A stretch of 13,579 nucleotides of DNA. Source: Conexibacter sp. Its GTDB lineage: Bacteria; Actinomycetota; Thermoleophilia; Solirubrobacterales; Solirubrobacteraceae. Under the pieces are notes generated by a model, which searched no databases, had not been told where the DNA came from, and saw only the letters and a program-made list of their open reading frames with translations. Made by a program: the position numbers and the translations under genes. Each line of letters begins with the position of its first letter. The first letter of the stretch is position 1. Location: positions 1 to 13,579 of the forward strand of contig JAOPZD010000146.1 in the NCBI GenBank assembly GCA_025964295.1, written 5' to 3'. Below, one piece after another: positions 1,105-13,579 of the stretch.

Positions 1105-1107
1105 GGG

Positions 1108-3165
1108 TTGCTGGCGGGGCTGCATGACTGGGTCGGGCGCCACCGCGTGGTGGTGCTCGTCGCCTGGGTCGCGCTCGTCGCGGCCGCGGTCCCGTTCGCC
1201 CTCCAGCAGTCCGACCGGCTCACCGGCGGCGGGTTCGCCGTCGGCGGGTCGCAGTCGGCCCAGGTCGAGGAGGCGGTGCAGCGCGGCGTCCCGGTCAACT
1301 ACCGGCCGCCGACGCTCGGCGCGGTCCTGATCGCGCCGAAGGGCACGCCGCTGCGCGACTACCGCGCGGCGCTGGCGGCGCTGGACCGGGCCGCGCGCGT
1401 GACCCCGCGCGTCACGCTGGACCCGCAGATCAAGGAGTCCGGGGTCTACTACGCGCGCGAGCGGCCCGGCGTCCCGGTGGTCCTCCCGCTCACGCTCGAC
1501 GCCGACGAGTTCCACGCGCCGGACGTCGCCAAGGTGCTGCGCAAGGAGCTGGGCCTGGCGGATGGCCGGACGTACGGCGCGGTCCGGCTGCACCTGATCG
1601 GCGCCGGCGCGCTGTGGGCCGGCATGGTCGACCTGACCAAGGACGACCTCGCCAGCGCCGAGCGCGTCGGGTTCCCGATCGTGGGGCTGATCCTGCTCGC
1701 GGTGTTCGGCTCGCTGGCCGCGGCGGTGCTGCCGCTGATCATCGGCGGGCTGTCGGTGTTGATCACCGGCGCGCTGATCGCGCTGATCGCCCGGCACTAC
1801 ACGATGACCTTCTACGTCCCGAACATGGCGTCGATGATCGGCCTCGGGGTCGCTGTCGACTACTCGCTGTTCGTCGTCGTGCGCTTCCGGGAGGAGCTGC
1901 GCGACGGGGCGTCGCTGGCGGCCGCGCGCGCCACGGCGATGGCCACGTCGGGGACCGCGGTGCTGTTCAGCGGGCTGGCGGTGGTCGTGGCGCTGGCCGG
2001 GCTGCTGCTGGTGCCGACGCCGGCGATCCGCTCGATGGCCGTCGGGGCCATGATGGTGGTGTTGGTCGCGATGGCCGCCTGCGCGACGCTGCTGCCCGCG
2101 CTGCTGGCCCTGGTCGGGCGGCGGATCGGGCCGGCCAAGCCCGACCCGGGCATGTTCCGGCGCTGGAGCGCGCGGGTGACGGCGCGGCCGCTCGTGGCGT
2201 TGTTGTCGTCCTTGGCCGTGCTGGTGGTGCTGGCCGCGCCGGCGATCGGGCTGAGGACGGGGGAGGGCGCGCTGCGCCAGTTCCCCAAGACGGATGAGAC
2301 GCGCGTGGGGTTCGAGGCGGCGCGCCAGGTGCGCGGGGCGGGCGACGGAACGCCGATGCGGATCCTCGTCAAGGCGCGCGACGTGAACCGCGCGGTGAAG
2401 CTCCTGCGCGCCGATCCCGACGTGGTGCGGACCGGCCTGCGCACGCGCACCGCCGACAAGAAGTGGCTCTTCCTGGTCGTGCGCGCGAAGTACGACGCGG
2501 ACACGCCGCAGGCCAAGGCGCTGGTCCAGCGGCTGCGGGCCCAGCTGCCGCGCGGCAGCCTGGTCGGCGGCGACACCGCGGCGCAGCTCGACTTCGACGA
2601 GGCGATCACCGGCTCGCTGTGGAAGATCATGGTGTGGATCCTCGTGGCGACGTTCGTCCTGCTGGCGGTGATGCTCCGCGCGGTGCCGCTGGCGCTGCAG
2701 GCGGTGGTCGCCAACGTGCTGAGCGTCGCGGCGAGCTTCGGGGTCCTGACGGTCTTCGAAGTGCTGCTGAAGGACGGCGGCTACGTCGACACCGTGACCA
2801 TCCCCATCATCATCGCCGTCGTCTTCGGCCTGTCGATGGACTACGAGGTCTTCCTCCTCAGCCGGATCCACGAACGCCGCGAGGCCGGCGCCGACACCCG
2901 CACCGCGGTCCTCGAAGGCATCGCCGCCAGCGGCAGGACCATCACCGGCGCCGCCCTCGTGATGGTCGCGGTCTTCGCCTGCTTCGCGCTGACCGGCGTC
3001 CCGGTCATCACCGAGATCGGCCTCGGCGCCGCCGTCGCGATCGCCATCGACGCAACGCTCGTCCGCCTCGTCCTGGTCCCTGCCGCGATCGTCCTCCTCG
3101 GCGACCGGGCCTGGTGGGCGCCGGACCTACGCCGAGGTCGCCGCGAACGCGTGCTCAGCAGCTGA
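1108..3165 (+). CDS. MMPL/RND-family membrane transporter
   Basis: A 685-residue RND-superfamily exporter with two MMPL domains. An N-terminal membrane helix (about 13-33) precedes an extracytoplasmic domain (35-185), a helix cluster (about 187-382), a second extracytoplasmic domain (385-500) and a second helix cluster (about 505-665). Both halves carry the signature of the proton-relay helix: GLGVAVDYSLF with D251-Y252, and FGLSMDYEVFLLSRI with D578-Y579. Such proteins use the proton motive force to export lipids or other hydrophobic compounds across the plasma membrane. The size suits the short actinobacterial class rather than the roughly 960-residue mycobacterial MmpL proteins. The TTG start has a GGAG ribosome site 7 nt upstream (1097-1100), and no in-frame ATG or GTG lies near it. 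The gene begins 3 nt after the secreted-protein stop. The cargo cannot be inferred. Confidence 0.92.
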   Translation: MLAGLHDWVGRHRVVVLVAWVALVAAAVPFALQQSDRLTGGGFAVGGSQSAQVEEAVQRGVPVNYRPPTLGAVLIAPKGTPLRDYRAALAALDRAARVTPRVTLDPQIKESGVYYARERPGVPVVLPLTLDADEFHAPDVAKVLRKELGLADGRTYGAVRLHLIGAGALWAGMVDLTKDDLASAERVGFPIVGLILLAVFGSLAAAVLPLIIGGLSVLITGALIALIARHYTMTFYVPNMASMIGLGVAVDYSLFVVVRFREELRDGASLAAARATAMATSGTAVLFSGLAVVVALAGLLLVPTPAIRSMAVGAMMVVLVAMAACATLLPALLALVGRRIGPAKPDPGMFRRWSARVTARPLVALLSSLAVLVVLAAPAIGLRTGEGALRQFPKTDETRVGFEAARQVRGAGDGTPMRILVKARDVNRAVKLLRADPDVVRTGLRTRTADKKWLFLVVRAKYDADTPQAKALVQRLRAQLPRGSLVGGDTAAQLDFDEAITGSLWKIMVWILVATFVLLAVMLRAVPLALQAVVANVLSVAASFGVLTVFEVLLKDGGYVDTVTIPIIIAVVFGLSMDYEVFLLSRIHERREAGADTRTAVLEGIAASGRTITGAALVMVAVFACFALTGVPVITEIGLGAAVAIAIDATLVRLVLVPAAIVLLGDRAWWAPDLRRGRRERVLSS

Positions 3166-3291: not shown

Positions 3292-3464
3292 CCGGCAATC
3301 CGTGATGTCGGCGCCGATCGGGAGCCGAAGTGCGGCGTTCGATGCCACGGCGCCCAGCGCCAGCGCTCCGCATCCCCTGTCCAGCGACACAAACCAGCCA
3401 CGCTCCACACCGCCACGACGCGAGCACGAGGCGGGAGTGAGGGGGCGACATCACGGATTGCCGG
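3292..3464. repeat. Perfect 19-bp inverted repeat bounding a 173-bp element
   Basis: CCGGCAATCCGTGATGTCG (3292-3310) recurs as its exact reverse complement at 3446-3464, with 135 bp between the arms. Similarity stops sharply at both ends of the arms. No obvious target-site duplication flanks the element (GGGAGG on the left, ACGGCC on the right) and no third copy lies in this window. It may be a small non-autonomous mobile element (MITE-like), two insertions of an extragenic repeat in opposite orientation, or a long-range RNA stem. The repeat itself is certain; its nature is not. Confidence 0.75.
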
Positions 3465-3484: not shown

Positions 3485-4480
3485 TCACGGCGCCGGGGCA
3501 GCAACACCAGCAGCCAGCGCGTAAGACCGGTCGGCCGAGACCGCCGGCGGCGTCCCGTAGACGTGGAAGCTCTCCACCGTGCGCACCCCCCAGGCCTGGC
3601 CCTTGGCGCGCTCGGCCTCGGTCCACATCAGCGGCTGCTGGTCGGGGTCGTAGAGGAGGTGGCCGCCGGTGGTCACCTCCATGCGGTTGCCGCCGGGCTC
3701 GAAGCCGTAGAGGAAGAAGCCGCCGGCGACCGCGTGCTTTGAGGGGGCGGCCTCGATGTGGACGCCGTAGTCGAGGAACAGGTCGGCGGCGCGCAGGCAC
3801 TCCTCCCGCGTGTCGACCCAGAACGCGATGTGGTGCAGGCGGCCGGAGGCCTCGCGGGCGTCGTGGACGTAGATCAGCTCGTGGGCGGCGATGGACAGCG
3901 AGAGCCAGGCGCCGGTCTCGCGGCCGTCGTCGAGGCGGATCCCCTCGTAGTGGCGGAAGCCGAGGACGTCGGTGGCGAAGGCGCGGCACGCGGCGACGTC
4001 GCGGGCCAGCAGGTTGACGTGGTCCAGGCGCTTGACGGCCGCGCCGCGGCCGGTGTTGCGCATCGGCACGTTGCGCAGCGCCGGCCTCAGATGGGGCGGG
4101 GCGACGTACCGGTCGGCCTCGGTCAGCAGCTCCATCACGTGCCCGTCGGGGTCGGTGAACCGGTAGGCCTTGCCGTGGCCGTGGTCGCCCTCGTGCCAGC
4201 CGAGGCCCAACCCGGTGGCCTCGATCGCGGCGACGCGGCGCTCCAGCGCCTCCGGGCTGTCGGCGCGCAGGGCCATGTGGCCGAGGCCGTTGGACGGCGC
4301 CTCGGTGAGCTTGAACGAGTACCGCTGGTACTCGCCCCAGGAGCGCAGGTACACCGACTGGCCCTCGCGGTGCTCCTCCTCCATCCCCAGGATGGTGATG
4401 AAGAAGTCGAGCGACGCCTGCGGCTCGGGCGTGAGCACCTCGACGTGGTGGATGTGCGCGATGTCGTGGCGCGCGCTCAT
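3485..4480 (-). CDS. Type I extradiol ring-cleavage dioxygenase (VOC, catechol 2,3-dioxygenase-like)
   Basis: A 331-residue two-domain vicinal-oxygen-chelate protein. The N-terminal VOC domain covers about 8-125 and the catalytic C-terminal domain about 150-290. The usual 2-His-1-Glu Fe(II)/Mn(II) site is complete: H154 (RLDHVNLLARD), H216/H217 (GRLHHIAFWVD) and E268 (GGNRMEVTTGG). The second-sphere residues H200, H249 and Y258 also fall where homoprotocatechuate 2,3-dioxygenase has H200, H248 and Y257. It should cleave a catechol-type ring next to the diol using O2, in the cytoplasm. The ring substituents cannot be read from sequence. ATG overlaps the stop of the upstream aldolase gene (ATGA, 4 bp), and this is the last gene of the four-gene minus-strand operon. 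The C-terminal 30 residues (after about 300) are a tail typical of this class. Class is near certain, substrate open. Confidence 0.9.
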   Translation of the reverse strand: MSARHDIAHIHHVEVLTPEPQASLDFFITILGMEEEHREGQSVYLRSWGEYQRYSFKLTEAPSNGLGHMALRADSPEALERRVAAIEATGLGLGWHEGDHGHGKAYRFTDPDGHVMELLTEADRYVAPPHLRPALRNVPMRNTGRGAAVKRLDHVNLLARDVAACRAFATDVLGFRHYEGIRLDDGRETGAWLSLSIAAHELIYVHDAREASGRLHHIAFWVDTREECLRAADLFLDYGVHIEAAPSKHAVAGGFFLYGFEPGGNRMEVTTGGHLLYDPDQQPLMWTEAERAKGQAWGVRTVESFHVYGTPPAVSADRSYALAAGVAAPAP

Positions 4481-5103
4481 CCGACCCCCTCGACGCGCTC
4501 GCGCAGCCCATCCAAGTCATAGGACAAGGCGCCCGCCTGGAGCTTGCCGCGCTTGACGCGCTCCCGCTCCTCGCGCGCGCGAGCGGCGGCGACGACCTCG
4601 TCGATCCGCGCGGCGGCGACGACCGCGACCCCGTCGGCGTCGAGGACCACCGCGTCGCCCGCGGCGATGCGCGCGCCGCCGATCGTCACCGGCTCGTCGA
4701 TCGTCCCGGGCGCGGTCTTGGTCGCGCCGCGGATCCGGACCCAGCGCGCCCAGATCGGCAGCCCCATCAGCGCGAGGTCCTCGACGTCGCGCACCGACGC
4801 GTCGACCAGCAGCGCCGCGACGCCCTGGGCCTTGGCCTGCGTGGCGAGCAGGTCGCCGATCAGCGCGACGGGGCGCGGCTCGGGCATCGTCAGCACGAGC
4901 ACGTCGCCGGGCCGCGCCGCGGCCATCGCGGCGTGGACCATCAGGTTGTCGTCCTGCCCGCAGCGCACCGGCCGCGCCGGGCCGCACGCGCGCGCGCCGG
5001 GGATCACGGCGAGGAAGTCGGCGTCGACGAGGCCTTCGCGGCCGGCCGCCTCGTACACCGTGGCGGACCCGAGCCGCCCGAGCTCTGAGAACGCGTCGGT
5101 CAC
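4477..5103 (-). CDS. RraA-family aldolase, GalC/HMG-CHA aldolase-like
   Basis: A 208-residue protein of the RraA/class II pyruvate aldolase family. The family's metal and substrate motif is visible: GDLLATQAKAQGVAALLVDA followed by SVRDVED, with R105 and D106 as the Arg-Asp pair that binds and activates substrate and divalent metal, and D109 following. In 4-hydroxy-4-methyl-2-oxoglutarate/4-carboxy-4-hydroxy-2-oxoadipate (HMG/CHA) aldolases this site splits the substrate to pyruvate plus pyruvate or oxaloacetate. The common VDG before this motif is VDA here (A102). The GTG start shares GTGA with the stop of the upstream GalB-like gene, so translation is probably coupled. It sits directly after a 4-oxalomesaconate-hydratase-like gene, which is the order of reactions in gallate and protocatechuate 4,5-cleavage. 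This supports the aldolase reading over the RNase E-regulator reading of the family name. Confidence 0.85.
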   Translation of the reverse strand: MTDAFSELGRLGSATVYEAAGREGLVDADFLAVIPGARACGPARPVRCGQDDNLMVHAAMAAARPGDVLVLTMPEPRPVALIGDLLATQAKAQGVAALLVDASVRDVEDLALMGLPIWARWVRIRGATKTAPGTIDEPVTIGGARIAAGDAVVLDADGVAVVAAARIDEVVAAARAREERERVKRGKLQAGALSYDLDGLRERVEGVG

Positions 5104-5822
5104 AGGCCGGTCACCACCTGGGGGATCACGCGCTGGAAGGCCTCGGCGTGGCGGATCTCGGCGTTGCCCGACGCGCGCCGCGCGTGGTTGGCGCGGTGCT
5201 CGGCGCGCTGGGCGTAGTAGGTCTGCAGGTACTGCTGGGCGGCCATCGCGGCCATCGCCTCCTGCTTGGCCGCGAACACCGGCGTGATGTCGACGAACGT
5301 CGTCGGCGTGAAGTGGCAGAGCTCGGGCTGATGGGGCTCGAAGAGGAAGAGGTCGGGCGGCTTGATGGAGGCGAACGCGCTGGCGACGCCGGCGCCCGCC
5401 GCCAGCGACCGCGCCCGCTGGACCACCGCGTGGGCCACCGGGTGGTCCGGGTTGAACGGGTCGGTGTCGGTGTGGGTGATCAGGACGTCGGGCGCGAAGT
5501 CGCGGATCGCGTCGACCACGAGGGCCATCCGCTCCGGCCCGATCTCCAGCGGGTAGTCGCCGAAGTCCAGCGCCTGGAACTCGGCGCCGAGCGCGTCCGC
5601 CGCCTTCTCGGCCTCGGCGTGGCGCACCGCCTTGACCGCCTCGAGCGTCTGGCCCTCGACCTTCCACAGCTCGCCGGACTCGCCCCGCTCGCCGTAGGAC
5701 AGCGCGATGACGCGGGCCGCGCCGCCGGCGCGGGTGGCCATGGCGATCGCGCCGCCGGCGCGCCAGACGAAGTCGGCGGAGTGGGCGCCGATGACCAGGA
5801 CGCGGCGCGGCGGCGCGCTCAT
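5100..5822 (-). CDS. PIG-L-fold hydratase, GalB (4-oxalomesaconate hydratase)-like
   Basis: A 240-residue protein of the PIG-L/LmbE Zn-dependent fold. The N-terminal motif is AHSADFVWRAGG: H14 and D17 correspond to zinc ligands, but the usual catalytic Asp between them (AHPDD) is Ala16. The third zinc site is in DPFNPDHPVAH (H127 and H131). Other segments, SYGERGES (42-49), FEPHQPELC (161-169) and HAEAFQRV (225-232), match what I recall of GalB from the Pseudomonas putida gallate pathway. GalB is a PIG-L-fold enzyme that hydrates 4-oxalomesaconate to 4-carboxy-4-hydroxy-2-oxoadipate. Loss of the deacetylase base and the adjacent GalC-like aldolase both favour a hydratase over an N-deacetylase. 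ATG overlaps the DUF6282 stop (ATGA) and the stop overlaps the aldolase start (GTGA). No signal peptide, so cytoplasmic. Confidence 0.87.
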   Translation of the reverse strand: MSAPPRRVLVIGAHSADFVWRAGGAIAMATRAGGAARVIALSYGERGESGELWKVEGQTLEAVKAVRHAEAEKAADALGAEFQALDFGDYPLEIGPERMALVVDAIRDFAPDVLITHTDTDPFNPDHPVAHAVVQRARSLAAGAGVASAFASIKPPDLFLFEPHQPELCHFTPTTFVDITPVFAAKQEAMAAMAAQQYLQTYYAQRAEHRANHARRASGNAEIRHAEAFQRVIPQVVTGL

Positions 5823-6760
5823 CGGTCGCCCCCCTCGGCGAGGCGGCGGCTCTGCTGGACGGTCATGGTCCGGATCTCCTGCTCGGTGATGCCGTGCTCC
5901 AGGAGGCGGTCGGCGAAGAGCGCCAGGCCGTCCTCGACGGGCGGGTTCTTGGGCTGGCCGAGGTCGGTCGACAGCAGGTTGTTGCGCGGTCCGGTGGCGC
6001 CGATCCCGTCGGCCACGTGCGACCACGTGCACTTGCCCGTGAACGGCGTCGTGAAGCAGCGCTCGAGCACGGCGCCCCGCCGCGCCAGCGCGACCTGGTC
6101 GTCGATCGCCAGGGCCTGGCTGGGGAACTCGGGGTGGGTGACGACGACGTCGCGCACGCCGGCGGCCCGCGCCGCGTCGACCACGGTGAAGATCTCGTCG
6201 CGGTCCAGGTGGCCGGTGGCGAGGACGAGCTGGTGCTTGGCGACGACGGCGAGGACCGCGAGCAGCGCCGGCAGGGGGTCGCCGCTGGCCGGATCGACCA
6301 CCGCGACCGGCGGGGTGTCCATCCCCGACTCGCGCAGCTCCTGCTGGATCGCGACCCACATCGGCACGTGCACGCCGGGTCCGTACCGGCGGTTGCGCGC
6401 GTCGGCCTCGTTGACCGCGTCGACCGTCGGCAGCCAGACGATCCGCGCGCCCTCGCGCGCGGCGATCTCCACGGCCAGCGGGTTGAGGCCGCCGACCGCG
6501 GCGTTCAGCGTGATCGCCCCGACCGCTCGGACGCCGCCCGGCGCGACGCCGCTGACCACGCGGGCGCGCTCGGCCGTCGAGGTGTAGTGCGACTTCAGGC
6601 CGAAGCCGGCGAGGCCGTGCTCAGCGCAGCGCTGCGCCAGCGCGACGTCGTCGACGATGCGGCCGACGACGTCGGGATCGACGTGGACGTGCAGGTCGTA
6701 GGCGCCGCGGACGATGGCCCGGCCGCGCTCGGTGGGGGTCGTGATCGGGATGTCGCTCAT
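5819..6760 (-). CDS. DUF6282 amidohydrolase-superfamily protein
   Basis: A 313-residue TIM-barrel metal-dependent hydrolase, first gene of the minus-strand operon. The amidohydrolase metal set is all visible in order: H24 and H26 (DLHVHVD), K56 (FGLKSHYTS), H184 (TGHLDRDE), H209 (VTHPEFPSQ) and D266 (STDLGQPKNPP). I take it as the DUF6282 family, whose reaction is not established. Relatives in the superfamily include lactone hydrolases of aromatic pathways such as LigI (2-pyrone-4,6-dicarboxylate hydrolase), so a lactone or enol-ester hydrolysis in the same catabolic route is plausible; this is inference. ATG at 6760 lies 11 bp after a TACGGT -10 box and has no Shine-Dalgarno sequence, so the mRNA is nearly leaderless. 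It overlaps the GalB-like gene by ATGA. Confidence 0.85.
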   Translation of the reverse strand: MSDIPITTPTERGRAIVRGAYDLHVHVDPDVVGRIVDDVALAQRCAEHGLAGFGLKSHYTSTAERARVVSGVAPGGVRAVGAITLNAAVGGLNPLAVEIAAREGARIVWLPTVDAVNEADARNRRYGPGVHVPMWVAIQQELRESGMDTPPVAVVDPASGDPLPALLAVLAVVAKHQLVLATGHLDRDEIFTVVDAARAAGVRDVVVTHPEFPSQALAIDDQVALARRGAVLERCFTTPFTGKCTWSHVADGIGATGPRNNLLSTDLGQPKNPPVEDGLALFADRLLEHGITEQEIRTMTVQQSRRLAEGGDR

Positions 6761-6771
6761 CGAATCGTCTG

Positions 6772-6801
6772 ACCGTAAACCCGCTGCCCCAGGATTGTCA
6801 A
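6772..6801 (-). promoter_or_regulatory. Promoter of the minus-strand catabolic operon
   Basis: Read on the minus strand, TTGACA (6801-6796) and TACGGT (6777-6772) are 18 bp apart. The start codon of the first operon gene begins 11 bp beyond the -10. The -35 is the left edge of the operator palindrome, so a bound repressor would block it. Confidence 0.65.
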
Positions 6802-6815
6802 CAATCTTGTTGACA
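6796..6815. promoter_or_regulatory. Operator palindrome, likely GntR/FCD binding site
   Basis: TGTCAACAATCTTGTTGACA is a perfect inverted repeat of 9 bp arms around a 2-bp centre. It lies in the 88-bp gap between the divergent catabolic operon and the GntR gene. Its two ends are the -35 boxes (TTGACA) of the two opposing promoters, so a single bound dimer could control both. AT-rich TTGT/ACAA-type palindromes next to the regulator gene are usual for FadR-subfamily GntR proteins. The assignment to this regulator is inferred from position. Confidence 0.75.
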
Positions 6816-6839
6816 CGCGGTCCACGGCGAGGCTAGGGT
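6810..6839 (+). promoter_or_regulatory. Promoter of the GntR regulator gene
   Basis: TTGACA (6810-6815) and TAGGGT (6834-6839) are 18 bp apart. ATG 6849 follows 9 bp after the -10 and has no Shine-Dalgarno sequence, so transcripts should be leaderless or nearly so. The -35 is the right end of the operator, which implies autoregulation. Confidence 0.65.
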
Positions 6840-6848
6840 CGGCCTCCG

Positions 6849-7526
6849 ATGGCCACGCCGCCCCCTGACGCCTACGCGCTGCTGCGCGCCGAGATCCTCA
6901 GCGGCGAGCTGCAGCCCAGCGAGCGCCTCGTCGAGGCCGACCTCACCGCGCGCCTCGGCGTCGGCCGCGCCGCCGTCCGCACGGCGCTGGCGCGCCTGAC
7001 GCAGGAGGGCCTCGTCGAGCACGAGCGCAACCGCGGCGCGCGCGTCCGGCTCGTCGACGAGCACGAGGCGGCCGAGATCCTCGAGGCGCGCATGGTCCTC
7101 GAGGGCCTCGCCGCGCGGCACGCCGCGACGCGGGCGACGCCCGGCGACGTGGCCGCGCTGCGGGCGATCCTCGCCGACATGGGCGAGCGGCTCGACGCCG
7201 GCGACCTGCTCGGCGCCTCTGACCGCAACGCGGTCCTGCACGCCCGGCTGATGGCGATCGCCGACCACGCGACGGTCGCGCGCCTGGTCGCCGGCCTGCG
7301 GGGTCAGCTCGTGCGCTTCCAGTACCGCACCATCCTGGTCCCCGGCCGCTCGGACCGCTCGCTGGCCGAGCACACGGCGATCGTCGACGCGGTGGCGGCG
7401 GGCGACGCCGACGCGGCCGAGGCGGCGATGCGCGCCCACCTCGGCCAGGTCGCCCACGCGCTGCGCGAGTCGCGTCAGCGAAACAGCGCCTCGACGGCGC
7501 CCGCGCCCAACCCGACGGCCTCGTAA
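6849..7526 (+). CDS. GntR-family regulator, FadR/FCD subfamily
   Basis: A 225-residue one-component transcription regulator. Residues 8-68 form the GntR winged helix, with ILSGELQPSERLVEADLTAR followed by LGVGRAAVRTALARLTQEGL as helix-turn-helix and recognition helix. Residues 75-205 form an all-helical FCD effector domain. Its expected metal/ligand pocket is present as H131, H175 and H197, with an acidic or amide residue (D125/N127) before H131. FCD regulators usually bind carboxylates such as organic or aromatic acids and release DNA on binding. It is divergent from the catabolic operon across a perfect palindrome, so it most likely represses that operon and itself. The last 20 residues (rich in Ala, Pro, Ser, Thr) lie outside the FCD domain and are encoded in DNA that also encodes the end of the cupin gene on the other strand. 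Confidence 0.9.
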   Translation: MATPPPDAYALLRAEILSGELQPSERLVEADLTARLGVGRAAVRTALARLTQEGLVEHERNRGARVRLVDEHEAAEILEARMVLEGLAARHAATRATPGDVAALRAILADMGERLDAGDLLGASDRNAVLHARLMAIADHATVARLVAGLRGQLVRFQYRTILVPGRSDRSLAEHTAIVDAVAAGDADAAEAAMRAHLGQVAHALRESRQRNSASTAPAPNPTAS

Positions 7527-8008
7527 TGCGCCTTGCACATCGCGATGTAGTGATGGACGTCGAAGAAGTCCTCGGACTCGCCGTCCTCGTCGAGCCAGAT
7601 CAGCGGCCCCTTGACGATGAAGATCGCGCGCATCGGCTCCTCGTGGTCGTAGGCGACGAGCGTGTGGCCCTCGCCGGGGGACTCGTAGACGAAGTCGCCG
7701 GCGGTCGCGATCCAGTCGTGCTCGAGGTACCCCCACTTGCCGGAGATGGTGTAGGCGAAGACCTCGTGCGGGTGGTAGTGGCGGTTGACGAGGCCGGCTT
7801 CCTTGGCCATGAGGACGTCGCACCAGCGGTTGGTCGTCGGCGAGATCCACAGGGGCCGCGAGGACACCGTCTCGGAGAACGGGACGTAGTAGCGGTCGTC
7901 GTCGATGGGGGCGTCGTGGAGGTAGACCTCGGGCGGCGCGTCGGGCTGGAAGACCTTCGCGATCGGCTTGAGGTCGCGCCAGAACTCGGTCTTGGGTGCG
8001 TCAGGCAT
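7475..8008 (-). CDS. Cupin dioxygenase, 2,4'-dihydroxyacetophenone dioxygenase-like
   Basis: A 177-residue single-domain cupin. The metal site is visible as the cluster H77, H79, H81-E82 (NRHYHPHEVFAYTISG) and H115 (SPGEGHTLVAY). The overall layout, with WISPTTNRWCDVLMAKEAG before the cupin and the acidic DEDGESEDFFD after it, resembles what is annotated as 2,4'-dihydroxyacetophenone dioxygenase family. That enzyme splits the side chain of a hydroxyacetophenone to 4-hydroxybenzoate and formate with a non-haem iron. Other cupin oxygenations cannot be excluded. I start it at ATG 8008, with AGGA 8 nt upstream; ATG 8017 (three residues longer) is an alternative. It is divergent from the importer operon and convergent with the GntR gene, overlapping it by 52 bp. 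Confidence 0.85.
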   Translation of the reverse strand: MPDAPKTEFWRDLKPIAKVFQPDAPPEVYLHDAPIDDDRYYVPFSETVSSRPLWISPTTNRWCDVLMAKEAGLVNRHYHPHEVFAYTISGKWGYLEHDWIATAGDFVYESPGEGHTLVAYDHEEPMRAIFIVKGPLIWLDEDGESEDFFDVHHYIAMCKAHYEAVGLGAGAVEALFR

Positions 8009-8056: not shown

Positions 8057-8107
8057 CGAGCAGGTCACGCGCGGACACCGTCCGGCAACGAGGGGAGACA
8101 GGTGACG

Positions 8108-9169
8108 ATGGAGGAGAACACCGCGGGTCACGGCGGTGCACAGACGCAGGTCGCGCGCGGGGGCGGCGGTCAGGACGACCGCGGCGCCAAGCTGCGCGAC
8201 CTCGGCCGGCGCGCGCTCGCGGTGGAGTCCAACAGCGTCCTGGTGGCGACCATCGCGCTGATCCTGTTCATCGGGATCATGCACCCCGACTTCCTCACCT
8301 GGAGCCAGCTGAAGGAGGTCGTCCAGAACTCGGTCTACGTCGGGATCATCGCCGCGGGGATGGCGTTCCTGATCTCGATGCGCGAGATCGACCTGTCGGT
8401 CGGGTCGATCTTCGGGCTGTCGATCGTGTGCTCCTCGCTGCTGATGCAGCACAGCTGGAACCCGTGGCTCGCCGGGCTGGCCGGGGTCCTGCTGGCCGGC
8501 GGGATGGGCCTGGTCAACGCGACCGCGGTGCAGTTCATCGCGATCCCGGCGATCGTCGCCACGCTCGCGACGCTCTCGATCTTCCGCGGCCTGGCGCAGG
8601 CGCTCAGCAACGGCCAGCAGGTCACCGGCCTGCCCGCCGACAACTCGTTCTTCACCTTCCTGGGCGGCGACAAGCTCGGCCTCCCGGTCAGCGTGTGGGT
8701 GCTGATCCTGGTGGTGATCGTGCTGACCGCGGTCCTGCGGCTGACCCCGTACGGTTACCGCGTCCGGGCGATCGGGTCCAACCCGGAGGCCGCGACGTTC
8801 TCGGGGATCTCGATCGCGCGCACGCGCGTGCAGACCCTGATGCTCGTCGGCCTGCTGTCGGGCGTCGCCGGCATGCTCGGGCTGGCCTTCTTCATCTCGG
8901 GCGACCCGAACATCGGCTCGGGCTTCGAGCTGCAGGCGATCGCCGCGGCGGTCATCGGCGGCACGCCCCTGCGCGGCGGCAGCGCGACGGTCGTCGGCGC
9001 GGTCCTCGGCGCGATCCTGCTGAGCGCGGTCAACAGCGGGTTGGCCTACTTCAACGTGCCGGTCAACTGGTCCAACTTCGCGACCGGCGCGGTGATCCTG
9101 ACCGCGGTGGCCCTCGACAGCCTCATCCGCGGGCGCCGGCAGCATCGCCGGCAAGCCCTTGACGCATGA
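8108..9169 (+). CDS. ABC transporter permease, CUT2/RbsC-like
   Basis: A 353-residue integral membrane subunit of the BPD_transp_2 (RbsC/XylH) type. A hydrophilic Gly-rich N-terminus of about 40 residues precedes roughly ten membrane segments. Family landmarks are MREIDLSVGSIFGLS, TPYGYRVRAIGSNPEAATFSGI (the cytoplasmic loop that contacts the ATPase, about 215-236) and AAAVIGGTPLRGGSATVVGA near the C-terminus. Two starts are possible: GTG 8102 (4 nt from the ribosome site) and ATG 8108 (10 nt). I chose ATG; the difference is two residues. It is the first gene of the importer operon, 35 nt before the binding-protein start. CUT2 systems mostly carry sugars, but this locus suggests another small hydroxylated compound or a glycoside. 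Confidence 0.92.
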   Translation: MEENTAGHGGAQTQVARGGGGQDDRGAKLRDLGRRALAVESNSVLVATIALILFIGIMHPDFLTWSQLKEVVQNSVYVGIIAAGMAFLISMREIDLSVGSIFGLSIVCSSLLMQHSWNPWLAGLAGVLLAGGMGLVNATAVQFIAIPAIVATLATLSIFRGLAQALSNGQQVTGLPADNSFFTFLGGDKLGLPVSVWVLILVVIVLTAVLRLTPYGYRVRAIGSNPEAATFSGISIARTRVQTLMLVGLLSGVAGMLGLAFFISGDPNIGSGFELQAIAAAVIGGTPLRGGSATVVGAVLGAILLSAVNSGLAYFNVPVNWSNFATGAVILTAVALDSLIRGRRQHRRQALDA

Positions 9170-9192
9170 CGATCTCTGACCATCTGAGCACT

Positions 9193-9197
9193 GGGAG
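9193..9197 (+). promoter_or_regulatory. Ribosome binding site deciding the binding-protein start
   Basis: GGGAG lies 7 nt before ATG 9205. It favours that start over ATG 9166, which overlaps the permease stop (ATGA) but would place 13 polar residues ahead of the lipoprotein signal. Confidence 0.55.
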
Positions 9198-9204
9198 CAG
9201 GAGC

Positions 9205-10326
9205 ATGACTGTGGTGTCACATCGGCGCGCCGGAGGGCGCGCATGGAGGTCGATGCTGTCCGTCGTCCTCGCCGCGGGGGTCGTCGTGGTCGCGGGCTGC
9301 GGCTCGTCGAACGACGACAAGACCTCGGGCGGCGGCGGGTCGACCGGCGCGAGCGGCGGCGGGTCCAAGAGCGCGAGCCTCGCGTTCGTCTACCCGACGA
9401 CCGAGACGAACTTCGGCCAGGAGATGGCGCTCGGCGCCAAGGCGGCCGCGCAGGACCGGCCGGCGGTCGACCTCAAGGAGTCGGCGCCCGCCAACGTCGA
9501 CGGGCCCAAGGAGGTCCAGCTCTTCCAGGCCGCGACGCGTGCCTCCAAGGACGGCGTGGCGATGATGACGCTGACGCCCGACCTGTTCCTGCGGCCGCTG
9601 CTCACCGCCGGCCAGCAGGGCGTCCCGCTGGTCGCGGTCGACGTGCCGCCGGCCAAGGGCGCCGAGAAGGCGGCCAAGCTGCTGATCGGCAACTCCAACG
9701 TCGGCATCGGCCAGGACCTGGCGAAGTCGCTGCTGGCCAAGATCCCCAAGGACGCGTCCGGCGAGGTGCTGATCGGCACCGACACCCCGGGCCTCCCGGT
9801 GCTCGAGCAGCGCAACCAGGGCTTCAAGCAGGTCATGGCCAAGGAGCGCCCGAACCTCAAGATGGTGGTCTTCGACGCCAAGCAGTCGCCGACCGACAAC
9901 TTCAACACGTGGAGCGCCCAGGTCAAGGCGCATCCCAATGCGATCGCCTACGTCGGGCCGGGCTCGCAGGCGGCGGTGTCGCTGACGCGGATCCAGAAGC
10001 GCGGCGGCAAGAAGCTCCTGGTCGGCGCATGCGACCTCGACCCGGTCGCGCTGCAGGGCGTCAAGGACGGCTACGTCGAGGCGCTGATCTCGCCGGAGCA
10101 CTTCCTGAAGGCCTACATCGCGATCGCGCTCCTGGCCGCCAACAAGCAGGACGGCAAGGCGCTGCCCGAGGGCGTCTGGAACACGGGCGAGCTGACGGTC
10201 AACAGCAAGAACATCGACGAGATCATCGCCCGGCAGAAGTCGCCGCAGGCCCGCGAGGCGTTCTTCAAGCCGGTGGCCGACAAGCAGCTGGCGGACCCGT
10301 CGTCCTACCTGGCCCCGGGCGCCTGA
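9205..10326 (+). CDS. ABC substrate-binding lipoprotein, RbsB-like (Peripla_BP_4)
   Basis: A 373-residue solute-binding lipoprotein. The signal has basic residues at 7-15, a hydrophobic stretch at about 17-30 and a lipobox VAGC, giving a lipidated Cys at position 32. A flexible Gly/Ser/Asn/Asp-rich linker (33-55) follows, then the two-lobed type I periplasmic binding fold from about 57 (LAFVYPTTETNFGQEMALGA). Hinge-type segments include LIGTDTPGLPVLEQRNQGFK and VGACDLDPVALQGVKDGYVE, the latter being the usual ligand-proximal D-x-D/A-x-x-G-V-x-x-G region. It delivers ligand to the RbsC-like permease from the outer face of the membrane. The operon order permease, binding protein, ATPase differs from the common rbsACB order. 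The ligand cannot be read from sequence. The alternative start at 9166 would give 386 residues. Confidence 0.9.
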   Translation: MTVVSHRRAGGRAWRSMLSVVLAAGVVVVAGCGSSNDDKTSGGGGSTGASGGGSKSASLAFVYPTTETNFGQEMALGAKAAAQDRPAVDLKESAPANVDGPKEVQLFQAATRASKDGVAMMTLTPDLFLRPLLTAGQQGVPLVAVDVPPAKGAEKAAKLLIGNSNVGIGQDLAKSLLAKIPKDASGEVLIGTDTPGLPVLEQRNQGFKQVMAKERPNLKMVVFDAKQSPTDNFNTWSAQVKAHPNAIAYVGPGSQAAVSLTRIQKRGGKKLLVGACDLDPVALQGVKDGYVEALISPEHFLKAYIAIALLAANKQDGKALPEGVWNTGELTVNSKNIDEIIARQKSPQAREAFFKPVADKQLADPSSYLAPGA

Positions 10327-10329
10327 CCC

Positions 10330-11847
10330 ATGCTCGAGGCGCGCGGCGTTCGCAAGTCCTACGGCGGCGTCGTGGCCCTGGCCGGCGCGGACCTCACGGT
10401 CCGCGCCGGCTCGGTGCACGCGCTGCTCGGGGAGAACGGCGCCGGGAAGTCGACGCTGGTGAAGGCGATCGCGGGTGCGGTGACGCCCGACGCGGGGTCG
10501 CTGGTGCTGGACGGCGTCGCGGTCCGGTTCGGGTCGACCGCCGAGGCGGTGCGCCACGGCGTGGCGGTCGTCTCCCAGGAGCTCAACGTCTTCCCCGATC
10601 TCGATGTCCTGGCCAACTTGTACCCCATGCGCGAGCCGCGGCGCGGGCCGTTCGTGCGGCGCGGGGAGATGGAGGCGCGGGCGCGGCCCGTGCTGGCCGA
10701 CCTGGAGCTCGACGTGGGGCTGCGCCAGCCGGTGGAGGAGCTCTCGCTGGCCGAGCGCCAGCTGATCGAGATCGCCAAGGCGATGCTGACCGACCCGCGG
10801 GTCCTGATCCTCGACGAGCCGACGAGCGCGCTCGGACAGGGGTCGACCGAGAACCTGCTGCGGATCCTGCGCGTCCTGCGCGACCGCCAGGTTGGCGTCG
10901 TGTTCGTGTCGCACATCCTCGAGGACGTGATGGCGCTGTGCGACGAGGTGACGGTGCTGCGCGACGGCGAGGTGGTCATGAGCGCGCGGCCGATGGGCGA
11001 GCTGACCGTGCCGGTGATCGTCGAGGCGATGCTGGGCGAGCGGCGCGAGGTCGTGCCGGCGCCCGCGGCGGCGCTGCGCGAGGTGGTCGAGCAGACCCGC
11101 GGCGCGCTGGAGCTGCGCGAGGCGTCGATCGAGGACCGGCTGCAGCCGCTGACGCTGACGGTGGCGCCGGGGGAGATCGTCGGCCTGGCCGGCGTCGCGG
11201 GCGCCGGGCACCACGCCGTCCTGGAGCTGGTGAGCGGTCTGACGCGGCCGTCGAGCGGCACCGTCACGCTGCCCTCGGGGCGCTCGGTGCCGCACGGGCT
11301 GCGTGGCGCGATCCGCGCGGGCGTCGCGCTGGTCAGCGGCGACCGCCGCCGGTTGGGGTTGATGTTGGACAAGCCGATCTGGGAGAACATCGCGCAGATC
11401 CGCGCGGTGGGCCTGGCGGCCGCGGGGCCGATCATCCGCACGCCCGATCTGCGCGTGCGCGCCCGCGAGCACGTCGAGCGCCTGCGCATCCGCAGCGCGT
11501 CGGTCGACCAGGACGTCGGCGGCCTGTCGGGCGGCAACCAGCAGAAGGTCGTCTTCGCCAAGTGGCTGGACGCCGCACCCTCGGTGATCCTGCTCGACGA
11601 CCCGACGCGCGGCGTCGACGTCGGCGCGAAGGCCGAGATGCACGCGCTGATCCGCTCGACCGCCTCCGCCGGCGTCCCGGTGCTGATGTGCTCCACCGAC
11701 ATCGACGAGCTCGCCAGCCTCTGCGACCGCGTGATCGTCATCCACAACGGCCGCGCGAAGGTCGAGCTGACCGGCACGACCCTCACGACCCACTCGGTGC
11801 TCGAAGCGATGAACACCGGCGAGCTGGCGGGCAGCGCACGAGGCTGA
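10330..11847 (+). CDS. ABC transporter ATPase with two nucleotide-binding domains, RbsA-like
   Basis: A 505-residue tandem ATPase that energises the CUT2 importer. Domain 1 (about 1-240) has Walker A GENGAGKST (34-42), signature LSLAERQ (138-144) and Walker B LILDEPT with E163. Domain 2 (about 255-500) has the degenerate Walker A region GLAGVAGAGHHA expected for this family, signature LSGGNQQK (399-406) and Walker B LLDDPTRGVDVGAK. The two domains have complementary peculiarities: the first signature lacks the normal Gly (LSLA), and the second Walker B has Asp424 where Glu is usual. RbsA-like proteins are normally asymmetric, so this is a modest variation. The start ATG lies 3 nt after the binding-protein stop, with no clear ribosome site, so coupled translation is likely. 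It is the last gene of the importer operon. Confidence 0.92.
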   Translation: MLEARGVRKSYGGVVALAGADLTVRAGSVHALLGENGAGKSTLVKAIAGAVTPDAGSLVLDGVAVRFGSTAEAVRHGVAVVSQELNVFPDLDVLANLYPMREPRRGPFVRRGEMEARARPVLADLELDVGLRQPVEELSLAERQLIEIAKAMLTDPRVLILDEPTSALGQGSTENLLRILRVLRDRQVGVVFVSHILEDVMALCDEVTVLRDGEVVMSARPMGELTVPVIVEAMLGERREVVPAPAAALREVVEQTRGALELREASIEDRLQPLTLTVAPGEIVGLAGVAGAGHHAVLELVSGLTRPSSGTVTLPSGRSVPHGLRGAIRAGVALVSGDRRRLGLMLDKPIWENIAQIRAVGLAAAGPIIRTPDLRVRAREHVERLRIRSASVDQDVGGLSGGNQQKVVFAKWLDAAPSVILLDDPTRGVDVGAKAEMHALIRSTASAGVPVLMCSTDIDELASLCDRVIVIHNGRAKVELTGTTLTTHSVLEAMNTGELAGSARG

Positions 11848-11949: not shown

Positions 11950-13002
11950 TTGACGCAGGGACACGACATCGACGGGGAGCTGGCGTGGTGGGACGGCGTT
12001 GCGCCGCTGTGCCGCTGGAAGGTGCTCCTCCTCGGCAACGGCCTGAGCACGAACGTGTGGGCAGGGTTCGACTACAAGTCGCTGTACGAGAAGGCGGCTG
12101 CTGGCAGTCGGCATGGTGGCTTGGCAGAGGCGGACAAGGTCCTCTTCGCGTCGGTCGGGGACACGACGAACTTCGAGCGCGTGCTGGCCGAGTTGAAGGC
12201 GGCGATCACGATGGCCAACGCGCTGGGGCAGGACGCCAAGCCCTACGCGGATCGGTACGCGAGCATCAAGCGCGCCCTGGGTGCCGCGGTGCGCGCCTCG
12301 CACATCGAGCAGATCGAGATCCCGGAGTCGACGTTCCGGACCATCCGGGACGCGATGCTGGAACTCAGCTGCGTCTTCACCACGAGCTATGACTTGCTCG
12401 CGTACTGGGCGATGAGCCTCGACGGCTTCGAGGGCTTCTGCGACTGCTTCTACGCCAACAACCGCAACGAGTTCGGCACCTGGGTCCCAGAGCTGCGCAC
12501 ACCGGTCTTCTTCCTGCACGGTGCGCTGCACCTCGTGGTCGAAGCCGACGGGACGACGCGAAAGCTCAAGCGCGACGACCGATCGCTGTTGGAGCAGTTC
12601 GGCAACCCCGCGCCGGATGACCCGGAGTCCGATCCGTTGCTGGTCACAGAGGGCTCCTCGCGGGACAAGCTCGCCGTGATCGAGCAGAACGACTATCTCG
12701 CCTACGTGCTGCAGCGGCTGCGCGAGAGCGACGAGCCGCTGGTCGTCTTCGGCCACAGCCTGAGCGAGCAGGACGCTCACCTCGTCGATGCCATCAACCT
12801 CCATCCGGATCGGTCGGTCGCCGTCTCGCTGCTGCCGAGCGACACGACGGCGGAGACGCGCGGCCGCCAGGCGGAGATCCGGGCGCGGCTGCACGCGGTG
12901 GACCGGTTGTACTTCTTCGACGCCTCGACGCATCCGCTCGGCGCGCCGGAGCTGCGAGCCGAGGGAATCTTCAACGGCACGGGGATGTTCGGCCGGGGCT
13001 GA
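11950..13002 (+). CDS. DUF4917 family SIR2-like protein
   Basis: A 350-residue protein that I assign to DUF4917, a SIR2-like family. Landmarks are LLLGNGLSTNVW (26-37, nucleotide-binding loop with G29-N30-G31), TTNFERVLAEL (72-82), FTTSYDLLAYW (143-153), FFLHGALHL (187-195) and VVFGHSLSEQDAHLVDA (265-281). The TT-x-YD, LHG and G-x-SL-x-x-D pattern is that of SIR2-like NAD-handling domains, several of which are NADases in anti-phage systems. In those the third residue of the TTNYD motif is usually Asn; here it is Ser146, so NADase activity is uncertain. It has no signal peptide and no partner gene beside it. Third codon positions carry more A and T than in the neighbouring genes, which may point to separate acquisition. 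It shares nothing visible with the catabolic locus. Function unproven. Confidence 0.78.
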   Translation: MTQGHDIDGELAWWDGVAPLCRWKVLLLGNGLSTNVWAGFDYKSLYEKAAAGSRHGGLAEADKVLFASVGDTTNFERVLAELKAAITMANALGQDAKPYADRYASIKRALGAAVRASHIEQIEIPESTFRTIRDAMLELSCVFTTSYDLLAYWAMSLDGFEGFCDCFYANNRNEFGTWVPELRTPVFFLHGALHLVVEADGTTRKLKRDDRSLLEQFGNPAPDDPESDPLLVTEGSSRDKLAVIEQNDYLAYVLQRLRESDEPLVVFGHSLSEQDAHLVDAINLHPDRSVAVSLLPSDTTAETRGRQAEIRARLHAVDRLYFFDASTHPLGAPELRAEGIFNGTGMFGRG

Positions 13003-13019: not shown

Positions 13020-13579
13020 CTACGGGTCGAAGTGCTCGTCCTGCTCGACGACGACCTCGAGGAGGATCGGCGACTCGCGGGAGGCGAGGGTGGGGAGGAG
13101 GTCGTCGAAGCGCGACAGGAGGTCGGCGTGGTCGGTGATGCGGACGGCGTCGATGGACTGCGCACGGGCGAGCGCGGAGATGTCGATGGTGTCGAGCGCG
13201 GGCCAGGGGCCGGGTGCGCCGGAGCGTTCGGCGAGGCGGTCCATGATCGCGTAGCCGCCGTTGGAGAGCACCAGGAAGACGACGCCGGCGTGGTAGGTGC
13301 CCGCCGACCAGAGGGTGAGGATCTGGTAGAGCGAGGCGCCGTCGCCGACGACCGCCAGGACGCCCCGGTCGGGGCGCGCGAGGCGAAGGCCGACCGCGGC
13401 GGGAAGGGCGAAGCCGAGCAGGCCCATGGCGCTGACGAAGCCGAGCGGCTCGACGATCGGGACGCGCGCGTGGAGCTCGGGCCGGCTGGAGGGCGTCTCC
13501 TCGACGAGGATCGCGTCGCGCGGCAGGCGGTCGGCGAGCGCGGCCAGGACGTGGGCGGCGCGCAGCGGCTCACCGGGAG
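13020..13579 (-). CDS. Thiamine-diphosphate enzyme, benzoylformate decarboxylase-like, C-terminal part
   Basis: About 185 C-terminal residues of a ThDP-dependent enzyme; the frame stays open to the right edge, so the N-terminal two thirds (with the cofactor-activating Glu) are outside. The ThDP/Mg-binding motif is clear: GDGASLYQILTLWSAG followed by VLSNGGYAIMD, i.e. GDG with a later N-G-G-Y. The preceding segment, AMGLLGFALPAAVGLRLARP, is the usual entry to the C-terminal pyrimidine-partner domain. The LYQILTLWSAGTYH stretch resembles benzoylformate decarboxylase (MdlC) and related 2-keto acid decarboxylases more than acetolactate synthase. Such enzymes turn aromatic 2-oxo acids into aldehydes and CO2 in the cytoplasm. 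It lies 17 bp from the convergent SIR2-like gene. The ATG at 13427 is internal. Class is clear, exact substrate not. Confidence 0.85.
   Translation of the reverse strand, partial: PGEPLRAAHVLAALADRLPRDAILVEETPSSRPELHARVPIVEPLGFVSAMGLLGFALPAAVGLRLARPDRGVLAVVGDGASLYQILTLWSAGTYHAGVVFLVLSNGGYAIMDRLAERSGAPGPWPALDTIDISALARAQSIDAVRITDHADLLSRFDDLLPTLASRESPILLEVVVEQDEHFDP

Follow-up and report, generated by a model that had tools for sequence, protein, structure and literature searches.

A predicted ring-cleavage operon in Conexibacter

The stretch of DNA analysed here (the window; 13,579 bases, 72% G+C) comes from Conexibacter sp. contig JAOPZD010000146.1 and contains four minus-strand genes that we interpret as a ring-cleavage operon. 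From right to left these encode a DUF6282 amidohydrolase-superfamily protein (5819–6760; 313 residues), a GalB-like 4-oxalomesaconate hydratase of the PIG-L fold (5100–5822; 240 residues), a GalC/LigK-like 4-carboxy-4-hydroxy-2-oxoadipate (CHA) aldolase of the RraA fold (4477–5103; 208 residues, GTG start), and a VOC-type (type I) extradiol dioxygenase (3485–4480; 331 residues) that we propose cleaves the ring of gallate or protocatechuate. Each of the three joins is a 4-bp overlap. A GntR/FCD-family regulator gene (6849–7526, plus strand) diverges from the DUF6282 gene, the intergenic region between them contains the palindromic site TTGTCAACAATCTTGTTGACAC (6795–6816), and beyond the regulator lies a minus-strand cupin gene (7475–8008) related to 2,4′-dihydroxyacetophenone dioxygenase. 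The initial annotation had described this arrangement, and its coordinates are correct to the base. We put at roughly 0.78 the probability that the operon specifies meta-cleavage of the gallate/protocatechuate type, with a type I VOC enzyme in place of the type II GalA, LigAB or DesB.

The two lower-pathway assignments come from a Pfam/NCBIfam scan of 10 window proteins (the genes at 3–365, 376–1104, 1105–3165 and 10330–11847 lay outside it) and from comparison with solved structures. The GalB-like protein carries a PIG-L domain (75.5 bits), matches the solved 4-oxalomesaconate hydratase 5cgz over residues 7–238 with 188.8 bits (the next best chain scores 26.7), and is 65% identical to a Thermus oshimai homologue. 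We considered a sugar or thiol deacetylase and set it aside, as the NCBIfam deacetylase models score at best 63.1 against 182.5, compared with the 5cgz score. The aldolase has an RraA-like domain (116.9 bits), and its best chain is the solved CHA aldolase 3noj (144.4 bits); it passes the CHA aldolase model NF006731 marginally (179.9, cut-off 179) and scores well below the threshold of the narrower model TIGR02798 (169 against 304.5). By family assignment the operon is predicted to have the GalB of the gallate (gal) pathway and, marginally, its GalC.

The gal pathway of Pseudomonas putida KT2440 consists of GalA, GalB, GalC and GalD. The window resembles it in that GalB-like and GalC-like genes share one overlapping gene string with a presumed ring-cleavage gene, and differs in having a VOC gene for the type II GalA, in the presence of DUF6282 and GntR genes, and in that no GalD is found among the 10 scanned proteins. 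These proteins also have no match to PF02900 or PF07746 (LigB/LigA), and at the operon level there is no type II GalA. The same lower intermediates would be expected as in protocatechuate 4,5-cleavage (LigAB, LigC, LigI, LigJ, LigK), but LigAB and PcaA are type II enzymes whereas the window ring-cleavage enzyme is type I, and no LigC is recognised in the window. PMC8431788 describes Pseudarthrobacter PcaA as an actinobacterial single-subunit type II enzyme that accepts gallate as well, converting it to 4-oxalomesaconate, and PMC8091115 describes how sphingomonads reach 4-oxalomesaconate from gallate by way of a dioxygenase. Among open-access titles and the openings of abstracts, with subscription papers outside that scope, we found no VOC enzyme credited with 4,5-cleavage of gallate or protocatechuate.

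The VOC protein has a Glyoxalase/VOC domain (85 bits) and narrowly misses the catechol 2,3-dioxygenase model TIGR03211 (317.7, cut-off 320.2); a relative in Agrobacterium vitis also misses it (301.6), and one in Thermus passes (332.2). It shares the VOC fold with catechol 2,3-dioxygenases, including XylE (1mpy) and the RHA1 protein 3lm4. H153, H216 and E267 align in all 19 members compared with XylE H153, H214 and E265, which we take to be the iron ligands, so that a 2-His-1-Glu iron site is present, and H248 and Y257 are likewise invariant, at positions that the catechol 2,3-dioxygenases share. At position 199 the window protein and its eight nearest kin have His and the other ten have Tyr; XylE H199 is presumably a second-sphere residue, and this variation may affect oxygen chemistry or substrate range. 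At Y50, R290, Q294, W296 and H305 all 19 members agree, and 3lm4 differs at every one of these positions (the XylE stretch compared stops before 294). R290 and Q294 are candidates for holding a substrate carboxylate; we dropped a firm assignment of the carboxylate-binding residue, and the two stand as candidate positions only.

The closest solved chain to the window VOC protein is 9wgj (376.7 bits), whose printed stretch is identical at 305 of 309 residues to a VOC protein of Geobacillus thermocatenulatus (L022) that is 52% identical to ours. The Geobacillus gene (9947–10945) adjoins GntR, DUF6282, GalB, GalC and DUF1932 genes. The structure was deposited as 'Catechol 1,2-dioxygenase' although it is a VOC-family protein, and this name looks wrong; we found no paper on a Geobacillus enzyme of this kind in the open-access literature.

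The DUF6282 protein (PF19799, 201.2 bits) has no phmmer similarity to any amidohydrolase in the PDB at E values up to 5. No LigI chain is among the matches, and we rejected the idea that it is a LigI orthologue by sequence. Its AlphaFold model (pLDDT 90.3) retrieves LigI with Foldseek (4dia at rank 9, E 3.4e-5; 4d8l at rank 13) amid many other amidohydrolases. The modelled barrel of the amidohydrolase superfamily is thus compatible with LigI and equally with other amidohydrolases, and we assign no function from the fold. DUF6282 and LigI alternate across VOC-GalB-GalC loci (see below). In two loci (L119, 10632–11540; L122, 10511–11392) the first His of the DUF6282 HxH motif is replaced by Tyr and the THP His by Asn, and the operon is intact. 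No paper on DUF6282 was found in the open-access literature.

Recurrence of the VOC gene with 4-oxalomesaconate hydratases

We looked for the same neighbourhood in an even sample of 299 genomes from the class to which a Solirubrobacterales metagenome-assembled genome (MAG; G001) belongs, and found it in 11. Of the 299 genomes, 14 have a GalB match at E 1e-40 (identity at least 70% in 11), 16 a VOC match at E 1e-60 (at least 58% in 11) and 12 a DUF6282 match at E 1e-50. The close GalB, close VOC and DUF6282 genes coincide in the same 11 genomes, always in the order DUF6282-GalB-GalC-VOC; in the twelfth DUF6282 genome (G262) a short contig carries DUF6282 and GalB together with a fragment of a VOC gene. 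None of the 12 genomes with DUF6282 has a GalD or a strong LigI. The closest relative found (locus L116 of genome G297) has the same order as the window, with 71–90% identity over the four operon genes, GntR, cupin and a three-gene ABC importer.

A wider scan of GTDB contigs with a VOC alignment kept at least 80 loci, and all fractions of 80 refer to the loci listed. A 4-oxalomesaconate hydratase is encoded within the stretch examined in 36 of the 80, GalB in 33 and LigJ in three, and 32 of the 36 also have GalC. LigJ, which is not homologous to GalB, was identified through a reference protein scoring 631 bits against 2gwg, and the LigI-like proteins through one scoring 262 bits against 4d8l. 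VOC genes with GalB or LigJ recur in Actinomycetota, Bacillota, Chloroflexota, Deinococcota, Acidobacteriota and Pseudomonadota. This recurrence in six phyla supports the view of the initial annotation that a type I enzyme sits in the place of GalA or LigAB. The gene set is not unique to the window: the neighbourhood is widespread.

The partner gene varies among the 36 hydratase-linked loci: 13 have GalD, ten a LigI-like gene, five DUF6282, and ten none of these. GalD and LigI are both present in two, and none has DUF6282 with either; nor does DUF6282, present in five of the 80 loci in all, occur with GalD or a LigI-like hydrolase in any of them. In the Bacillus and Cohnella carriers (L014, L024), GalD and LigI are both missing and the locus contains no DUF6282. 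Plasmid-borne GalB-VOC-GalC-GalD operons occur in Agrobacterium vitis and Thioclava; in the former, GalD lies above the cut-off for 4-oxalomesaconate tautomerase (503 vs 440). In Thermus oshimai the order is VOC-GntR-DUF6282-GalB-GalC-DUF1932, beside genes annotated as an aldehyde dehydrogenase and a 4-hydroxybenzoate 3-monooxygenase. DUF1932 genes are present in 15 of the 36 loci and also in L117 and L120.

A DUF1932 NAD-binding oxidoreductase gene adjoins the operons of L001, L005, L006, L009, L017, L019–L023, L082, L085, L117 and L120, and is found beside both GalD-type and DUF6282-type operons. It may act as the semialdehyde dehydrogenase in a route from protocatechuate.

In a midpoint-rooted tree of 48 rows from chosen loci, the hydratase-linked VOC proteins fall within one 40-row clade (support 99/95), and we place the window protein in this clade, next to catechol 2,3-dioxygenase. 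Outside it are XylE and 3lm4, the weak class relatives L112–L115, and L046 and L047, for which the genome search found neither GalB nor LigJ. The DUF6282 label needs four changes on the tree and the GalD label three, and the partner gene has therefore been exchanged more than once. Many records annotate genes of the linked clade as catechol 2,3-dioxygenase.

Of the type II components, LigA exceeds its cut-off in three of the 299 class genomes, none of them among the 11 closest, and the LigA domain is absent from 48 of the 56 VOC-bearing genomes searched. The initial annotation had regarded a LigAB or GalA homologue elsewhere in the genome, co-regulated with the operon, as fatal to its proposal; in the relatives no LigA domain is found in these 48 or in the 11 closest, and eight of the 56 do have one. 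The eight comprise five of 28 genomes with GalB, GalC or GalD in the VOC locus (one barely over the cut-off) and three of 28 in a second set. LigB/GalA-type matches in the first 28 score 302–363 bits in four genomes, none reaching the gallate-dioxygenase cut-off of 412, and 47–59 bits in five more. For most of the carriers examined, though not for every one, the VOC protein is the only recognised ring-opening candidate. On a Roseomonas gilardii plasmid (L004, 7043–9960), genes for LigA, LigB, an alpha/beta hydrolase and a VOC dioxygenase follow in succession; here, as in L010, type I and type II ring-opening genes share a cluster.

A proposed route and its alternatives

The VOC gene is linked to, and co-occurs with, 4-oxalomesaconate hydratase genes, and from this we propose the following route. 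The VOC enzyme would open a 3,4-dihydroxybenzoate, yielding either 4-oxalomesaconate or the corresponding lactone, 2-pyrone-4,6-dicarboxylate, the substrate being most simply gallate, or protocatechuate if a dehydrogenase encoded elsewhere follows. The DUF6282 protein would hydrolyse 2-pyrone-4,6-dicarboxylate or tautomerise 4-oxalomesaconate in place of LigI or GalD. By their family assignments, the GalB-like enzyme would then hydrate the product to CHA and the GalC-like aldolase would split this into pyruvate and oxaloacetate. A type I enzyme cutting the same bond as a type II enzyme would give the same product, with GalB and GalC then completing the route.

A gallate/protocatechuate-type substrate is likely. 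The initial annotation had suggested that the substrate is perhaps a catechol with an acyl or carboxyl side chain; this is not needed, because there are complete GalB-VOC-GalC-GalD operons in A. vitis and Thioclava, and gallate or protocatechuate suffices. GalD-type loci fit gallate, and LigI-type loci and Thermus fit protocatechuate by way of 2-pyrone-4,6-dicarboxylate. For the window itself the lack of a recognised dehydrogenase favours gallate, and the 2,4′-dihydroxyacetophenone dioxygenase homologue points to 4-hydroxybenzoate, hence to protocatechuate.

On balance we think it probable that gallate and protocatechuate have a second family of ring-opening enzymes, not homologous to the first, in this VOC clade, which would supply 4-oxalomesaconate in six or more phyla, and that DUF6282, so far without an assigned role, provides a third way, alongside GalD and LigI, of getting from ring opening to hydration. 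The overall pathway is established; what would be new is the ring-opening enzyme and the DUF6282 step. If this is correct, the label catechol 2,3-dioxygenase is wrong for a widespread family, one member of which has a solved structure, and many bacteria that lack LigAB and GalA would be able to use gallate- and protocatechuate-type products of lignin and tannin. It would also be a clean case of an unrelated enzyme fold taking over one pathway step, would give DUF6282 its first testable function, and would offer further enzymes to try for producing 2-pyrone-4,6-dicarboxylate or 4-oxalomesaconate from lignin.

Several observations weigh against the proposed route. No hydratase gene is present in the stretch examined for 44 of the 80 loci. 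In favour of the route, a genome-wide search for 26 of these found GalB elsewhere in 22 genomes (in Bradyrhizobium such as G328, G332 and G342, about 24–26 kb from the VOC gene) and LigJ in two of the remaining four; the other 18 loci were outside the GalB search. Within the class, the GalB of G255 (50%) is accompanied by GalD and lies at a distance from a weak VOC match (44%), G291 has a GalB (58%) and no VOC match, and the other four genomes with weak VOC matches (38–45%) have no GalB match; moreover the class genomes are related, and the 11 of 11 do not amount to 11 independent events. LigA is present in the eight VOC genomes noted above; LigA-LigB genes adjoin the VOC gene in L004 and L010, and in G326, G337 and G340 LigA is 3–6 kb from GalB, closer than the VOC gene. 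The search for LigB-type enzymes lacking a LigA domain was confined to the first 28 genomes, and many genomes are MAGs, so that absences are weak. The linked clade spans GalD, LigI and DUF6282 contexts and may therefore hold more than one substrate, and the TIGR03211 scores, near the cut-off in the window and above it in Thermus, leave room for plain catechol activity. For DUF6282, the VIA-align list is headed by dihydroorotase and phosphotriesterase relatives, and LigI is not in its 50 rows.

A specific form of the proposed route, tentative in our view, has protocatechuate as the substrate: the VOC enzyme would yield the 6-semialdehyde, DUF1932 or an aldehyde dehydrogenase would convert this to 2-pyrone-4,6-dicarboxylate, and DUF6282 would hydrolyse the lactone as LigI does. 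The neighbours of the T. oshimai operon are consistent with it, as are the DUF1932 (15 of 36) and LigI-like (10 of 36) genes of the hydratase-linked loci and the modelled amidohydrolase fold of DUF6282 with LigI among the Foldseek matches. The window cupin also points this way, being similar over its full length to the characterised 2,4′-dihydroxyacetophenone dioxygenase 4p9g (309 bits; residues 7–177 of 177, or 171 residues); such an enzyme would yield 4-hydroxybenzoate, a precursor of protocatechuate, and the cupin may be an upstream feeder step. However, no dehydrogenase is recognised in the scanned window proteins or in the syntenic part of L116, and DUF1932 is also found in GalD-type loci and so need not be the dehydrogenase in question.

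It is unlikely that the VOC enzyme instead acts on some other substituted catechol, for example 3-O-methylgallate or the product of a trihydroxyphenyl ketone, and converges on the same intermediates. Cleavage of 3-O-methylgallate is proposed in PMC8091115 to reach 4-oxalomesaconate, and the 2,4′-dihydroxyacetophenone dioxygenase homologue adjoins the operon, but among the loci examined the cupin is present only in the window and L116 and therefore does not define the operon. Least probable is an ordinary catechol 2,3-dioxygenase placed beside unrelated GalB and GalC genes, which would accord with the TIGR03211 scores, the many database annotations and the name given by the depositors of 9wgj to this near-identical relative of the Geobacillus member, but which we judge improbable because the linked genes are GalB, GalC, GalD, LigI and LigJ, with two non-homologous hydratases linked or co-occurring in six phyla, while 3lm4, XylE, L046, L047 and L112–L115 are outside the linked clade and no 2-hydroxymuconate pathway genes are recognised among the scanned window proteins.

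Regulator and flanking genes

The GntR/FCD protein (FCD 103 bits, GntR 56.5 bits) is 81% identical in L116, where a palindrome matching the window site is found at 10612–10641. L121 likewise contains the core word TTGTCAACAA, at position 3419 and some 40 bp upstream of the GntR gene of that locus; the word was not seen in the other class loci scanned. The site at 6795–6816 is probably the GntR operator, from which the divergent regulator would repress the operon.

To the right of the cupin gene are three plus-strand genes for an Rbs-like sugar-type ABC importer (8102–11847), possibly for substrate uptake: a permease (8102–9169) and a binding protein (9166–10326), both from the family scan, and an ATPase (10330–11847) named from its sequence and position. 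These are syntenic in L116 with 81–90% identity, and the cupin is 88% identical there; the 80 listed GTDB loci have no cupin match. We considered a conserved link of the cupin or the importer to the operon and rejected it, as among the loci examined both were seen only in the window and L116.

The 3′ part of the window contains a DUF4917 gene (11950–13002) and the C-terminal part of a benzoylformate-decarboxylase-like TPP enzyme (13020–13577), cut by the window end. The TPP-enzyme gene is also present in L116 (77%), where two other predicted genes take the place of DUF4917 amid the conserved ABC and TPP-enzyme genes, and this site is possibly a spot of recent exchange.

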